Of a stretch of DNA of 64,000 nt, positions 12,955 to 32,807 are shown piece by piece. The notes below the pieces were generated by a model. That model made no database searches. It was given only the letters and a program-made list of their open reading frames with translations, and was not told where the DNA came from. Numbering within the stretch: the stretch's first letter is position 1; every line of letters starts with the position of its first letter. A program made the translations under genes and the position numbers. This DNA comes from Nitrospira sp. GTDB lineage: Bacteria; Nitrospirota; Nitrospiria; Nitrospirales; Nitrospiraceae. The DNA lies in assembly GCA_018242725.1 (NCBI GenBank), contig JAFEBI010000001.1:253008-317007 (forward strand). Reading direction: 5' to 3'.

Positions 12955-13053
12955 GATTCGTCTCTCGGAAAACAATCAGCGGCCAGCTCTCGCCGACGGA
13001 CTCTCGCCACATCGCCGAGAACTGGCCGCTGAACATGGGCTGATGCGTGCGCG

Positions 13054-25517: not shown

Positions 25518-25956
25518 CCGCACAACATGAGCACGGCATTAGGATCAAAGAAGGGAGAATCACACTCGAAGGGATCCTTGGACTCCCGGCTGATCCTCGC
25601 GGCGTAGTTATCTTTGCGCATGGAAGCGGCAGCGGTCGATTGAGCCCTCGCAACAATTTCGCCGCCCGCCATCTCCAGTAAGTAGACCTTGCCACAGTAT
25701 TGCTGGATCTCTTGACCGAAGAAGAGGAAGATCACCGGCACAAGATGTTCGATATTGATCTATTGGCAGACCGACTGTTACTGACGAAGAGTTAAGTGGA
25801 GACGAAGCAGCGAACAGATGAATCCGTCAGCCTACGATTTGCTCACTTGTGAAAAAATCGATCCTCGTTCCCGGTGCAACCCACCTCTTTGAAGAACCAG
25901 GCACGTTGGAACAGGTGGGGAGGTGGTTCCAGCAATACCTCCGCCAACTCCAGTAA
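25514..25956 (+). pseudogene. Alpha/beta-hydrolase (dienelactone-hydrolase-like), nonsense and deletion
   Basis: The first 55 codons (from ATG 25514) encode the start of a family I recognise by V-V-I-F-A-H-G-S-G-S-G-R-x-S-P-R-N. An in-frame TAA at 25679-25681 interrupts it; the same frame then continues VDLATVLLDLLTEEEEDHRHK to a stop near 25790. A further piece of the C-terminus, GATHLFEEPGTLEQVGRWFQ, ends at 25954-25956 in another frame. The central region with the nucleophile serine and catalytic aspartate is missing, so the gene is dead. A second copy of the same C-terminal motif lies beyond the Fic gene. Confidence 0.85.
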
Positions 25957-26132: not shown

Positions 26133-27269
26133 ATGAATATCAATGAGTTCAAAGCCGGAAAGTACGAGGAACGGTATGAGTACCAGAGCTTCTTGCCTAC
26201 GACAATCAACCAGGAATGGATAGTTTCTGACTCCAAGGTCCTTACTCTCCTGGAAGAAACGAATCGTCTGCTTGGAGAGTTGAATGCATTCTCTCAGCTC
26301 ATTCCGGACGTCGATTTCTTTATCCGCATGCACATCACCAAGGAGGCTACAACTTCTAGCCGTATCGAAGGCACACAAACCAATATTGAAGAAGCATTAG
26401 TAGGCAAACTCGATGTTGATCCGGAAAAACGCGATGACTGGCAAGAAGTACACAATTACATCGAGGCGATCAATTTCGCCATCAAACAATTGGGGCAGAT
26501 CCCCTTATCCAATCGGCTCTTGCGCGAGACACACGCGGTGTTGTTACGCGGAGTACGGGGTAAACACAAACAGCCAGGAGAATTTCGCACGAGTCAAAAC
26601 TGGATCGGTGTCAGTCTCAAACACGCTACGTTTATCCCGCCACATCACCAGCATGTGCCGGACCTGATGAGCGATCTGGAACAGTTCATGTACAATGAAA
26701 AAATCTACATTCCACACCTGCTCAAGATCGCGCTCATACATTACCAATTTGAGACAATCCACCCATTCCTAGACGGGAACGGACGTTTAGGTCGCTTGCT
26801 GATCGTACTTTACTTGGTAAGCTTCGGCCTGCTGCATAAGCCAGCTCTGTATTTCTCCGATTTCTTCGAGCGACACAAGGGAGAGTATTATGATCAGCTG
26901 ATGGCAGTCCGTACGACTAACAAGCTAGAACCATGGCTGCGGTTCTTCTTGCTCGGCCTGCGCGAAACTACCGGGATGTCCATTCAAGTATTCAAAGACA
27001 TTCTGGCACTTAAGGAACGCATTGAGCGCAAGCATCTCCCAACATTCCATGTCCGCCGACAAGCCAACGCGCAAGCCCTCATGCGATCACTCTATAGAAA
27101 GCCTGTGACCAACATTAAAATGGTGACCGACCTCATTCAAGCCCAAACCAACACCGCCGCAGCGCTCATCGACGATTTTGTCAGGCTTGAGATCCTGAAA
27201 GAATTTACTGGTCAGAGGCGTAATCGGCTCTTTATCTTTGAAGAATACGTACGATTGTTCAAACGATAG
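26133..27269 (+). CDS. Fic-domain protein with C-terminal winged helix
   Basis: This 378-aa protein has an intact Fic active-site loop, HPFLDGNGRLGR at 210-221, with H210 as catalytic base. The N-terminal alpha motif S-x3-E-G (S75 to G80, SSRIEG) is the auto-inhibitory type built into the same chain (class II Fic). The C-terminal 90 residues look like a winged-helix DNA-binding domain. Fic enzymes transfer AMP, or sometimes other groups, to a target protein. ATG 26133 follows AGAGGAA. It sits in a strip of decayed genes, has its own palindrome upstream and no partner antitoxin gene is needed. Target unknown: stress regulation or self-limiting toxicity are both possible. Confidence 0.9.
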   Translation: MNINEFKAGKYEERYEYQSFLPTTINQEWIVSDSKVLTLLEETNRLLGELNAFSQLIPDVDFFIRMHITKEATTSSRIEGTQTNIEEALVGKLDVDPEKRDDWQEVHNYIEAINFAIKQLGQIPLSNRLLRETHAVLLRGVRGKHKQPGEFRTSQNWIGVSLKHATFIPPHHQHVPDLMSDLEQFMYNEKIYIPHLLKIALIHYQFETIHPFLDGNGRLGRLLIVLYLVSFGLLHKPALYFSDFFERHKGEYYDQLMAVRTTNKLEPWLRFFLLGLRETTGMSIQVFKDILALKERIERKHLPTFHVRRQANAQALMRSLYRKPVTNIKMVTDLIQAQTNTAAALIDDFVRLEILKEFTGQRRNRLFIFEEYVRLFKR

Positions 27270-27280
27270 CTGGCACTACC

Positions 27281-27372
27281 GTTCCCGATACAACCCACCT
27301 CTTTGCACGTTGGAACAAGTGACGGAGCTTACAAGTAAGTGGTTTGAGCGAAAGCTGAAGCTCCCCGGATAG
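27281..27372 (+). pseudogene. Second fragment of an alpha/beta-hydrolase C-terminus
   Basis: V-P-D-T-T-H-L-F, then after a small deletion and frame change, TLEQVTELTSKWFERKL ends at TAG 27370-27372. It is the same motif as the fragment at 25859-25956 (GATHLFEEPGTLEQVGRWF) but about 60-70% similar, so it comes from a related hydrolase gene rather than from a recent copy. Confidence 0.7.
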
Positions 27373-27414: not shown

Positions 27415-27672
27415 TCAGGCAGACACACGCTTCCATTCTCTGGCACGGGCGGCGAAGGGGTTCTTGTATTTAGGCCAATCGTGCAGCGTCGCTGGGTCAA
27501 AAGCGGCCCCGTTCGGTCACACCAGTGTTTTCACCTCGGGATCTACGGCCACTTGGTTAAACAGATCGAGATTGAGTAGCGGACCATAGAGCTCGCCAGC
27601 CAAGACTGGTTTCGGGTCAATAATTTGCTCCGTGTCGTTGGTAAATTACACTCGAAGCGTGTAAGACTCGAC
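27415..27672 (-). pseudogene. DUF2442 family gene remnant
   Basis: Read on the minus strand the sequence gives ESYTLRV-stop-FTNDTEQIIDPKPVL, LYGPLLNLDLFNQVAVDPE and KTLV-stop-PNGAAFDPATLHDW. This matches DUF2442 (L-x-V-x-F-x-D-G-T, F-x-P-L-x-D-x-x-x-F-x-x-V-x-x-D, T-L-x-W-P-N-G-A), where the second stop replaces the conserved Trp of WPNG by a TGG-to-TGA change. DUF2442 proteins often pair with DUF4160 in toxin-antitoxin-like operons; no intact DUF4160 gene is seen upstream. Two nonsense codons mean it is dead. The 157 bases above it (27673-27829) hold only a short hairpin. Confidence 0.8.
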
Positions 27673-27829
27673 AACTCCGACGCTCCTCATTTGATGGTTC
27701 ATGAGGGCTCTAGCCAAACATGGCTAGAAGAAACGATGTAAGTTCCCGTAATACGCTTGAGGCCAGAAACCTACGTTATGCTGATGCCGAACATAGTCCA
27801 AAATGAGCATATAATCTTCGAACTACGAC

Positions 27830-29041
27830 TCATCCGCCAGACATCTTCCAGAGGCACATTCGAATGATTCCAATCTGGTCCTTTGCAGGATCGATATCAA
27901 AGTTTTCGTGATACTCTAAATACTCCGAACAGGATTCAACATTGCTTGATTCACCATGAAGGAGTTGATTTCTTATATCCAACAGAAGTTTGGTACGAAT
28001 GTGGACTCGATCAATCTCTCCGGCATGCTTTTTCACACCTGCTAAAATGCTCTTTCTCACTGACCTATCCTCTCCAAAAAGAGCATCGAGAGCAATGGCA
28101 TTGTGCAGAAAGCCCATTCTACCAATAGGTAGCCATCCGGCAGCAATGTACTCCAGTGCGACTTGAATCTTTTGGTTAGCTGCTTGATTTACAAGAAGGC
28201 CACCAATCATCTTCAGCATCGGAGGGTTTACAGCGATTGCACCCAATCCTCCCGGCAGTTGAGGCGGGCGGTACCAGATTGTGCATTTCCCATCCTGCCG
28301 AATTGCCACATGCCCTTTGGGCAATCCGGACCGCGCGTAGGTGAAGGAACGTGACTTTGGGAAGTCCATTGCCATAGAGAGCGCGCCCAGAAAAGCCTGC
28401 ATCACGCTTTCAGCTCGAGTATGGCTCCCCTCAAAGACTCCTAGCCAGGCATCAGTAGACCGTACAGGCCATGAAGAATGTTTCCCAACAAACGGAGGAT
28501 ATTGGTTGCCCAGCAGCCGTATCCGGAACCTATCGAATCGACCAATGACAGTATCCAATTCCGAGGCTCCTGGAACAAGAAATAGTCGGTCTGTAACGAT
28601 CTCGCCAGAAAGCTGTACTTCTGGGAGAGGCAGGAGATAGGCCATTTTTTGGCCGGAATTATTCAAGTAGTTCTGAAGTTGGAACGACATTATTTCTATG
28701 GTGTCATCATTTGCAAGATCGAGCAGTGATTGATCATTCCCAAGGGCAGAAAATACTGTTCCTGGCCCTAATACGGAAATGCTGCTCGTAGCAAAGTCAG
28801 TTAGAAGACGTGACACTGTTTCTACGGATTGTTCCCCAAAGAGGTGCGGATGTTGTCGAATCACATCGATGGTCGTCTGTTGAAGTAACCTACGATGGAT
28901 AAACAGAGTGAAGACGGCGCTTCCGGATAAACCGCGGTTGTCTGATTCATGCCAATGGAACTGAAGGTTGTCTTCTTTCTGAGAGCCGGCCAATCGAAAA
29001 GATGCTAGAAGGCTTTTGGTGATCAGGATTGTTGGGCCCAT
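27830..29041 (-). CDS. Uncharacterised protein with C-terminal ApeA-like HEPN domain
   Basis: This 403-aa soluble protein has an unrecognised N-terminal region (about 1-270) rich in aromatic and polar residues and a C-terminal helical domain. In that domain IALDALFGED is followed by KLLLDIRNQLLHGES, giving the HEPN R-N-x3-H motif (R357 and H362). In HEPN ribonucleases, including ApeA and many toxins, this Arg/His pair cuts RNA. By eye its base composition is poorer in G+C than its neighbours and it lies beside Fic and broken toxin-antitoxin-type genes, pointing to acquisition. The likely role is phage defence or a growth-arrest ribonuclease; this is inference. No ribosome site precedes ATG 29041. 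Confidence 0.7.
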   Translation of the reverse strand: MGPTILITKSLLASFRLAGSQKEDNLQFHWHESDNRGLSGSAVFTLFIHRRLLQQTTIDVIRQHPHLFGEQSVETVSRLLTDFATSSISVLGPGTVFSALGNDQSLLDLANDDTIEIMSFQLQNYLNNSGQKMAYLLPLPEVQLSGEIVTDRLFLVPGASELDTVIGRFDRFRIRLLGNQYPPFVGKHSSWPVRSTDAWLGVFEGSHTRAESVMQAFLGALSMAMDFPKSRSFTYARSGLPKGHVAIRQDGKCTIWYRPPQLPGGLGAIAVNPPMLKMIGGLLVNQAANQKIQVALEYIAAGWLPIGRMGFLHNAIALDALFGEDRSVRKSILAGVKKHAGEIDRVHIRTKLLLDIRNQLLHGESSNVESCSEYLEYHENFDIDPAKDQIGIIRMCLWKMSGG

Positions 29042-29192: not shown

Positions 29193-32100
29193 TCAGGCAC
29201 TCGGCGAGAGCAGGAAGTTGATGTCGTCCTTCGTCAGCACGCCCTGCCCTGAGCCTCGCACCGCGCCGGCCAGGACTGCGTCGTACAGCTCAAGCTTTCG
29301 TTGCTTCAGGGCCATCATCTTCTCCTCAATACTGTGCCGCATGAGAATCCGCTCGATCGTGACGGTCCGTTGTTGTCCGATACGATGCGCGCGATCCGAT
29401 GCCTGGCGCTCTACCGCCGGATTCCACCAAGGATCCAGATGAAAGACATAACTCGCGCGGGTCAGATTCAACCCTTGCCCCCCCGCTTTCAGGCTCAGGA
29501 GAAAGACATCGGACTGATCACCGGCCTGAAAGGCCTTCACGCGCGCTTTGCGCGCAGCCAGTGCCGTGGAACCGTCCAATCGATGATACGGCAATCCATG
29601 CTGTATGCACGCTTCCTGCACCAGATCCAGAAAGCTGGTGAACTGTGAGAATACCAGCGCGCTATGCCCTTCCTCTCGCAATACGCTTAATCGTTCCATG
29701 AGAAAACCAAGCTTGGGGGAGCGCTCCTCCGGTTGTTTTGTAAGGAGCCGTGGCGAAAGACAGATTTGCCGAAGCTTGAGGATGGCCGCGAGGGCGATGA
29801 GCTGCGCCTGCCCGGAGGTCTTGCTGCGATAGGCCTCATCGATCGTTGAGCGAACTTGTTCGACCGTCTGTTGATAGAGCGCCTTTTGGCGATCGGTCAA
29901 CTCCAAGAACACCTCGTGCTCGATTTTCGGGGGTAAGTCCTGAAGAATCTCCGCCTTGGTCCGGCGCAGAATAAAGGGCCTCGTTCGACGTAACACCCGG
30001 TCAAGCGCAGGACCCGAGAGACGTTTTACGTCCGTCCTGAATCGATCACTCTCGCCTAAGAGCCCGGGCACGCAGAGATCGATTATGGAGAAATACTCGC
30101 CAAGATGGTTTTCGAGTGGTGTCCCGGTCAACGCGATTTTGAAGCGCCCCTGGAGTCGCCGGACTGCCCCCGTCGTGTCCGCCTGAATGTTCTTCACCGC
30201 CTGAGCCTCATCGAATACGATCATGTGGAACATGGTCTGCCCCAAGACATCGATATCCCGACGAACCAGTCCATAGGTCGTGAGCACGATCTCACCGTCC
30301 CCGGCCTCCAATGTCCGTTCACTCCCGCTATACACATGAACCGTAAGCTCGGGCGCGAACCGAGCCAGTTCCTGCTCCCAATTGAAGAGCAGACTCGTCG
30401 GCACGACGACCAGATGAGGGCCTTTCACCCCACACGCTGCCTTGAGGCGTCCCTCTCTGATGGCAGCCAGAAGGCAGATGGTCTGGATGGTCTTGCCCAA
30501 CCCCATGTCGTCCGCCAAACAGGCTCCGAAGCGATGGGCATAGAGAAACGCCAACCAGGCATAGCCGTCCTGCTGGTAGGGGCGCAGCGTCGCGTGAAGA
30601 CCCTTCGGTAACGGCGGCTTCTCAATCTGCACAAATCCCAGCAAGCCCGCCAACACAGCCTCATCTTCGGCCGGCAACGACACGCTGATTCCCTGCTCGC
30701 GCAGCGCGAGCCAATCGAGGATCTGTAGCCGAGGCACCCGTACCACCTGCGTCGATTCCCGATTCGCCTGGGCGCCCACGGTCAGGTCGAGGATGGCGCG
30801 TAGCCGTTCCATGCTTGGGCCGTCCAGAACCCGTAGACCCCCCTCACTCTCGATGAGTCCGCCTCGCTGCAGAACTGTCCTCCACTCCTGCTCATTAATA
30901 ACCATCCCATCACAACGAATCTCCGGCTTGATCTCGAACCAGTCGATTCCTGTTGCTTGTCGATCCTGATGGTCGACATGGACGGAACAGTCCCACCGAA
31001 CGGACTTGAGTGGTGTGTCTTCGTACAAGAGCGTGATTCCCGCCGTCGTCAGCTTTTCCAAAAGAACCGGCAAGCGTGGAAACAGCAGCCGCAAGTCGAT
31101 CACCATGGCAGCATACGAGGACATGCCGCGAAATGCCTCCGGGCCGAAGACTTCAAAGGGAACCTGGTACAGCGCCCCCTCACGAACCTTGTCAATCCTC
31201 TGCAAACTCCACTGCCCTGCCTCGATCTGCAACCGTACATCCGATCTGGCATAGACGGCCAAGTGCTGTTTCAGCCACCGTGCGGCCTCTAGCCGAATGC
31301 TTCGGACCCAATCAGTCTGATCCAACGCCTCCTTGATGCGGTGGTCTCGTTCTTTCGCCTCACCGACAGCCAGTAGGCTGAAAAACAACTCGTAGAGTAC
31401 CGCCTTACGTTTCTGTGTTCGCAACGGCCCTGACACAGCACGACCCTGCTCCAACGCTTGGATGCAGGAAAAGGTCGACGCACTTGGGGAACACCACATC
31501 TCACCGTGCCGGCATTGTGCTTGGAGCATCCATGCGGTTGTCGGCGCACCGGCCTCATCGGGAAGCGGCCTGAGCGTCAATGTGTATGCTCGTTCCTCGC
31601 TCGCTGATCCAACCAGAGACGAGCGAACCGGCGTCTCGTCCCCATCTACACGTAACAGCATATCGTGAAGCATGTTGTCGACCTGCTTGTGGATCAGATC
31701 GATCTGAGCGGATTGAACTTCTTGTCGTGAAACGGTGAATTCCAGCGCATGGGGTAGTCCCTGCCATCGCCGATGGTCCTCACTGGCCGGTAAGGTCACG
31801 GCACAGGGTGCTTCGTCCAAACCAGCGCGATCATACGGGAAGTCGAATCGCTGAAAGCCCTTTTGCAGCGCGACAAAAGTGGCCCAACCACGCTCATCTT
31901 CCAACAAGAGCAAGCGTCGGCCATTCACATCAACCACGAAATGACGAAAACGAACAATCCAATCGAGCACCGTGCCGTCCGCGACGCAGACCGCGCGAAT
32001 CCTCACGCCATTACTGGAAAGAGCCATCTCCGTCTTGCTGCGGCACGCGACCGTCGGAGCCCATTGAAGGACAAGCGAGTCCCGGCCGACTTTGAGCACA

Positions 32101-32807
32101 ATAGGGAACCGGCGCTTGGCCACGCCAAGGTAGCGCAACAGGGGATCATCCCCATAGGTCGACGAAAACCAGGACGGATGAAGCAGCGGTCGCAGTTCGG
32201 GCGGGAGGGCAGGAGCCCACCCGGCAAGCAGTCTCATACCATTGCGGTAGACGGAGAGCTGCGGAGAGGGCTGGTCCGCATCGATTACGATTTCATAGCC
32301 CGATTCCACCGTGTGGCCCTTACTCGGGGAACCCATCTGAATGGGTTCCCCGAGTAAGTCGATTCTAAGTGCGGCAAGGTGGGCTTGTTCTCGATCGGAC
32401 AATTGGAACGTCTCGGGCACAAGGAGATGTTTCGTGGTGAAACAGACACACAGGACATGTTTGCACGGACAATCGAACTCCCATGCCGGACAGTCACAGA
32501 AGGCAGACAGAAACCCGTCATCCAGAGAAAACACGACTTCGTACAAGATGGTACCCTGTACATGGGCCGTGAGTGTCGCGCTATCCCTGCTCCAGACGTA
32601 GTGCTGAAGTCGCTGCTGCCGGTAGTAGTCATAGCCTCGAACCACCGACACTTTCGGGGCCATCGTATACACATCATTAACGGCAAGGTTACGAAATGCG
32701 GCAAGGAGAGCGACCGCCGCAGGGGCTTGGGCGATAGGGCTTCCCGTGGTTGTTTCAGCAGGAGTGCTATTTGTTTTCCTAAAACGAGACGCAGGCTTCT
32801 TTCGCAT
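29193..32807 (-). CDS. SNF2-family helicase with SWIM zinc finger
   Basis: The 1204-aa protein has an N-terminal SWIM zinc finger (C104-x-C106 ... C115-x-H117), a long SNF2-associated middle region, and a complete SNF2 ATPase engine at about 740-1195. Visible motifs are DDMGLGKT at 766-773 (Walker A), V-F-D-E-A-Q (motif II), L-T-G-T-P-L-E-N (motif III), the VFSQFTSF and GLNL region (motifs IV and V) and RAHRIGQQR (motif VI). It should translocate on double-stranded DNA and remodel protein-DNA complexes. Such stand-alone SWIM-SNF2 proteins are widespread, so I do not assign it to defence merely from its position 151 bases downstream of the HEPN gene. Confidence 0.92.
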   Translation of the reverse strand: MRKKPASRFRKTNSTPAETTTGSPIAQAPAAVALLAAFRNLAVNDVYTMAPKVSVVRGYDYYRQQRLQHYVWSRDSATLTAHVQGTILYEVVFSLDDGFLSAFCDCPAWEFDCPCKHVLCVCFTTKHLLVPETFQLSDREQAHLAALRIDLLGEPIQMGSPSKGHTVESGYEIVIDADQPSPQLSVYRNGMRLLAGWAPALPPELRPLLHPSWFSSTYGDDPLLRYLGVAKRRFPIVLKVGRDSLVLQWAPTVACRSKTEMALSSNGVRIRAVCVADGTVLDWIVRFRHFVVDVNGRRLLLLEDERGWATFVALQKGFQRFDFPYDRAGLDEAPCAVTLPASEDHRRWQGLPHALEFTVSRQEVQSAQIDLIHKQVDNMLHDMLLRVDGDETPVRSSLVGSASEERAYTLTLRPLPDEAGAPTTAWMLQAQCRHGEMWCSPSASTFSCIQALEQGRAVSGPLRTQKRKAVLYELFFSLLAVGEAKERDHRIKEALDQTDWVRSIRLEAARWLKQHLAVYARSDVRLQIEAGQWSLQRIDKVREGALYQVPFEVFGPEAFRGMSSYAAMVIDLRLLFPRLPVLLEKLTTAGITLLYEDTPLKSVRWDCSVHVDHQDRQATGIDWFEIKPEIRCDGMVINEQEWRTVLQRGGLIESEGGLRVLDGPSMERLRAILDLTVGAQANRESTQVVRVPRLQILDWLALREQGISVSLPAEDEAVLAGLLGFVQIEKPPLPKGLHATLRPYQQDGYAWLAFLYAHRFGACLADDMGLGKTIQTICLLAAIREGRLKAACGVKGPHLVVVPTSLLFNWEQELARFAPELTVHVYSGSERTLEAGDGEIVLTTYGLVRRDIDVLGQTMFHMIVFDEAQAVKNIQADTTGAVRRLQGRFKIALTGTPLENHLGEYFSIIDLCVPGLLGESDRFRTDVKRLSGPALDRVLRRTRPFILRRTKAEILQDLPPKIEHEVFLELTDRQKALYQQTVEQVRSTIDEAYRSKTSGQAQLIALAAILKLRQICLSPRLLTKQPEERSPKLGFLMERLSVLREEGHSALVFSQFTSFLDLVQEACIQHGLPYHRLDGSTALAARKARVKAFQAGDQSDVFLLSLKAGGQGLNLTRASYVFHLDPWWNPAVERQASDRAHRIGQQRTVTIERILMRHSIEEKMMALKQRKLELYDAVLAGAVRGSGQGVLTKDDINFLLSPSA

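Follow-up and report, generated by a model that had tools for sequence, protein, structure and literature searches.

A stand-alone HEPN-family protein of 403 aa, P0001, encoded in a window of 64,000 nucleotides of Nitrospira sp. DNA, is probably a toxin that serves, as a single gene, in phage defence or growth arrest. The account that we favour, with somewhat better than an even chance of being right, is that of a single-gene latent ribonuclease toxin under the control of its own N-terminal part, with phage as the probable trigger and abortive infection as the outcome, where ribonuclease activity, dimerisation, N-terminal control and trigger are all things that we infer. The C-terminal HEPN domain, through R357 and H362, would dimerise and cut RNA, and the N-terminal ~270 residues would hold the RNase off, sense the trigger, or both. 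The trigger would most likely be a phage component, and activation would lead to growth arrest or death of the infected cell; abortive infection is the likely mode of action. The initial annotation had already proposed a stand-alone HEPN defence or toxin protein, and this reading is supported by the conservation of the motif, by the accessory hotspot in which the gene lies and by the surroundings of one homologue, P0005.

The gene and its C-terminal domain

The open reading frame, which begins with an ATG at 29041 and has its stop codon ending at 27830 on the minus strand, was confirmed from the sequence to be intact over its full length, as initially annotated (Table 1). The impression by eye that the gene was AT-richer was borne out by its GC content, 47.9% versus 56-58% in the flanking genes, and by that of its third codon positions, 45.5% versus 58-66%. 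The N-terminal part had been described as lacking a recognised domain, and no Pfam domain scored above the cut-off in residues 1-261. For the protein as a whole, no model in Pfam, NCBIfam or PADLOC matched, the only Pfam scores being sub-threshold ones (HEPN_MAE_28990, E=0.023; Crp, E=0.019), and sequence searches of the PDB gave nothing meaningful. In PHROGs v4, P0001 matched phrog_23812, annotated as "unknown function", with E=2.3e-12 over residues 287-402, so that the C-terminal third alone is covered. Membership of a PHROG implies phage or prophage carriers, given how that database was built.

Table 1. Features of the P0001 locus, in positions of the window.
Feature	Position	Strand	Basis
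Decayed alpha/beta-hydrolase-like gene, left border	25518..25918	+	In-frame stops; congeners have longer open copies
Fic protein, 378 aa, SoFic type	26133..27269	+	Pfam Fic_N E=1.4e-23, Fic E=3.8e-19; PADLOC SoFic E=6.7e-116
DUF2442 pseudogene relic	27417..27674	-	In-frame stops; DNA likeness to intact congener copies
Stand-alone HEPN-family protein P0001, 403 aa	27830..29041	-	Intact ORF, phrog_23812 match, full-length homologue
C-terminal HEPN-like domain, residues 262-403	27833..28258	-	AF2 model and structure matches; well modelled from ~residue 290
R357-N-Q-L-L-H362, predicted RNase active-site motif	27956..27973	-	R357, H362 and G363 invariant in five members
N-terminal part, residues 1-261, presumed regulatory/sensor	28259..29041	-	Conserved in homologues P0003 and P0004
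SNF2-type helicase gene, right border	29193..32807	-	Type named from sequence

Near the C-terminus P0001 carries R357-N-Q-L-L-H362-G. A bare R-x4-H is present in 55.9% of shuffles of the P0001 sequence, and taken alone is thus within what chance would give; the fuller RNxxxHG is present in 0.24%. A second R-x4-H, at R308, is not conserved in the homologues. In the alignment of the five members, P0001-P0005, the invariant positions are L352, R357, H362, G363, Y374, D384 and P385. Thus the arginine and histidine of the R-N-x3-H motif initially annotated are present and invariant, but its asparagine is not conserved, since position 358 is A or S in the other members. Because R357 and H362 are kept in all the homologues found, a chance occurrence of R-x4-H was dropped as an explanation, and the motif is taken as real given its conservation, together with G363, in five members and the HEPN-like model of the C-terminal region. 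As a rule, a HEPN domain that bears Rx4-6H is an RNase independent of metal, in which the histidine (and the arginine) proved essential where tested, and the superfamily is recognised by a family-conserved Rx4-6H (PMC3710099), which R357 and H362 supply in the aligned sequences.

The full-length AlphaFold2 (AF2) model of P0001 was too poor (pLDDT 45) to enter the fold search, and we therefore assign no fold to the N-terminal part. The C-terminal 142 residues, modelled from five sequences, gave a pLDDT of 80.2 and a pTM of 0.75. The model has seven helices; a long one carries R357 close to its end, and H362 follows directly after this helix. With this model Foldseek returned no significant E-values and a viral structure library no match. 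When the Foldseek candidates were re-aligned, five HEPN-type chains led with Z values of 6.2-7.4, middling for a helical bundle, and the next chain stood at 4.5. The five are 2hsb, YutE, HepT in 6m6u and 5yep (Z 6.5-6.6) and the sacsin HEPN domain; the HEPN status of 2hsb, HepT and sacsin was taken from their names or publications, and the YutE structure is one that we presume to be HEPN-type. What leads us to accept the fold is that the motif is conserved and HEPN chains rank first as well, and the C-terminal domain, as modelled, would accordingly be an all-helical HEPN domain.

A small and rare family

Homologues were sought by scanning genomes with the phrog_23812 profile and then with growing alignments. 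The other members are 19-49% identical to P0001, come from Nitrospirota and another phylum, and match phrog_23812 in the same region as P0001 (E=2e-7 to 5e-5). The nearest, P0002, is a C-terminal fragment from a Nitrospirota MAG with 49% identity. The alignment of P0003 (437 aa) to P0001 spans 372 aa and takes in the N-terminal part (24% identity, E=9e-12). P0003 came up among genomes sampled from the phylum to which a Rhodoferax genome belongs, and is on that ground taken as pseudomonadotal; P0004 (438 aa) and P0005 (476 aa) are from the same order as P0003. The family is rare, being found in 2 of 395 genomes of P0001's own phylum, and no relatives were seen in the congeners searched. The existence of full-length homologues of the same layout, none with a conserved partner gene, speaks for the favoured account, and the conservation of the N-terminal part across the family suggests a control built into the protein. 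Against that account stand the size of the family, five members in all, the contexts of P0003 and P0004, which are not clearly those of defence, the middling Z values and non-significant Foldseek E-values, and the lack of relatives in the phage, plasmid and IMG/VR collections searched, despite the match to a PHROG.

P0003 and P0004 carry a C-terminal extension of ~35 aa that P0001 lacks, and the genes beside P0001 are dead, as would be expected if the site were a gene graveyard and P0001 itself a relic in decay, without function. We give this idea very little credence, for the open reading frame is intact and alignable with homologues from near its start, the predicted active-site residues are retained, and P0002, the homologue from Nitrospirota, stops at roughly the same place as P0001, so that the short tail is lineage-typical.

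Searches elsewhere added no member. Tblastn of P0001, P0002 and P0003 against phage and plasmid records gave nothing credible; a match in an Apilactobacillus plasmid (E 0.8), to an ORF of 132 aa that lies within a cluster of phage genes, was judged to be chance. Scans of IMG/VR with P0001, the alignments A1 and A2, P0005 and a motif pattern found no relatives, the lone pattern match (L008) spanning low-complexity sequence and being put down to chance. GTDB contigs scanned with P0001 patterns yielded nothing, and of the 15 matches there to the fixed-spacing pattern RNxxxHG...DPxxDQ only the known Nitrospirota MAG was real. Profile searches of Planctomycetota-side and Rhodoferax-class samples were empty, a result of little weight. 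A distant HEPN-like protein with the motif R-S-A-L-I-H-G was noticed at L034:7663-9315 (+) (E=8.9e-5; no Pfam match), among recombinase-like genes and adjoining a truncated comM-like gene, these neighbours being named from sequence; it probably represents a HEPN family of its own, located in an island.

We would put forward tentatively, as a possibility that we doubt more than we believe, a wider claim: that these proteins are an undescribed single-gene anti-phage family, that the N-terminal ~270 aa are a new phage sensor, and that phages and integrative elements have spread the family at low frequency across phyla.

Surroundings of the homologues

P0005 adjoins an AAA_21 ATPase matching the PtuA and AriA models, and its 20-kb stretch also holds an AAA_25 protein and a tyrosine integrase, the latter ~7 kb from P0005. 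The ATPase (L031:11755-13557, +; 601 aa), beside which a separate PtuB-like partner was not noticed, is possibly a stand-alone OLD-like defence ATPase. P0004 has a SoFic-type Fic gene ~7 kb away, and P0003 adjoins a SEC-C protein in surroundings of mostly ordinary genes. This 584-aa SEC-C motif protein (L026:6613-8367, -) is divergent to P0003 and is absent from the other loci. We regard the contexts of P0003 and P0004 as neutral. No neighbouring gene is common to the homologous loci, which points to a HEPN family without a fixed partner.

Of the homologues, whose setting the initial annotation proposed to check, P0005 has surroundings suggestive of defence, and those of P0003 and P0004 tell less. 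The mostly ordinary genes around the last two would suit a HEPN protein unrelated to conflict, engaged in RNA processing or other housekeeping and at its site by chance. This seems improbable to us: P0001 is absent from the congeners searched, is rare in its phylum, is low in GC and lies in a variable hotspot, all of which one would not expect of a housekeeping gene. Nor are housekeeping contexts the only ones found, given that hotspot and the PtuA-like ATPase and integrase by P0005.

A variable site in the genus

The interval between the tail of the hydrolase gene (25816-25918) and the SNF2 helicase gene was compared in ten congeneric genomes, one copy of each kind of interval gene being checked with Pfam and the rest assigned by likeness. 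The hydrolase-gene tail is kept in nine of the ten. The helicase gene, found in most congeners tested at 64-89% identity and aligned in 10/10 fetched genomes, is a border gene outside the HEPN system. Between these borders the interval is short or near-empty in four congeners (L037, L040, L042, L044), and elsewhere holds Phd-YefM/ParE pairs (L035, L038, L041), Fic (L039, L041), an Mrr endonuclease (L036, L039, L043), DUF2442 with DUF4160 (L036), or DUF2442 with DUF4258/MqsA-like genes (L043). At P0001 the content is the SoFic-type Fic gene, the broken DUF2442 gene and the HEPN gene. The site is a small hotspot for conflict genes (toxin, restriction, SoFic), and SoFic is reported to protect through abortive infection (PMC12249575).

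The neighbours named in the initial annotation are as it described them. The Fic gene matches both Pfam Fic models, the DUF2442 remnant has internal stops and 80% DNA identity to the intact copies in L036 and L043, and the hydrolase gene is broken, in keeping with the "dead genes" of that account. The intact L036 copy is DUF2442 by Pfam; the broken copy near P0001 has no Pfam match. No Rfam family, tRNA or small ORF adjoining P0001 was found at the site.

Several further features of the hotspot were noticed. A partial repeat of the hydrolase-gene tail flanks the Fic gene (25866-25917 and 27280-27321; 26 nt at 92% and 17 nt at 94%), and in L041 a second copy of the tail directly follows the Fic gene (12974-13010); such repeats hint at how modules enter the site. 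A 380-aa protein at L039:11624-12766 (+), with remnants at L043:5683-6636 (-), matches nothing in Pfam or NCBIfam and nothing clearly in PHROGs, and its C-terminal ...RARHGDRKPYT... is faintly HEPN-like by eye.

That congeners hold ordinary type II toxin-antitoxin pairs at this same site, and that HEPN domains act as toxins in toxin-antitoxin systems (PMC7641770), would accord with a growth-regulating HEPN toxin of toxin-antitoxin or stress type, not triggered by phage and restrained either by its own N-terminus or by an antitoxin that is unlinked or made of RNA. We think this rather unlikely, as P0001 has no adjoining small ORF and the homologous loci no conserved partner, 403-476 aa is large for a toxin of this type, and the conserved N-terminal part suggests control within the protein. 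The latent, probably phage-triggered ribonuclease remains our preferred reading.

Significance

These results add a HEPN family missed by the current Pfam, NCBIfam and PADLOC models, give phrog_23812 a testable predicted function, that of a HEPN RNase, and point to a small defence and toxin hotspot in a genus of Nitrospirota. Should the sensing of phage prove to be the task of the N-terminal part, a known effector would here be joined to a new sensing module. The use of the findings lies in annotation and experiment, and they hold no surprise in principle.

Comparison with known systems

The profile of phrog_23812 fits the C-terminal domain of P0001 and the lengths are alike (440 versus 403 aa), but with HMMER the likeness does not extend to the N-terminal parts. 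Among HEPN/MNT pairs, HepT-MntA shares the domain fold and the Rx4H motif, but P0001 has a large extra N-terminal part and no MNT partner; with Fic, the DUF2442 relic and the SNF2 helicase as neighbours and no MNT nucleotidyltransferase gene among them, such a pair was dropped. The MAE_28990/MAE_18760-like HEPN family (PF18737) weakly matches residues 337-380, at 15.3 bits, well under the cut-off of 26.8 bits.

The initial annotation had likened P0001 to ApeA, which is likewise one protein with an N-terminal part and a C-terminal HEPN domain (PMC3710099); the N-terminal domain of ApeA, ApeA-NTD1, is mostly beta-strand and ~300 aa long. When this likeness was checked by HMM, the HEPN_Apea profile (PF18739) matched neither P0001 nor its homologues in hmmscan, and a direct search of their genomes, with E allowed to rise to 10, left these loci unmatched. 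As the HEPN profile was negative, membership of ApeA was dropped. Tha, from Staphylococcus prophages, has 301 aa, an undefined N-terminal part and a C-terminal HEPN domain with R265NSIMH270, and is a non-specific RNase triggered by phage tail proteins (PMC11087260), which makes it a precedent for the account favoured here. It resembles P0001 in layout, one protein with an undefined N-terminus and a C-terminal HEPN R-N-x3-H, and by layout alone the two are likened; Tha differs in being shorter and prophage-borne. P0001 is thus best filed under a new HEPN family, as yet unnamed, whose general type of system is known, distinct from ApeA by its HEPN profile and comparable in layout to Tha.
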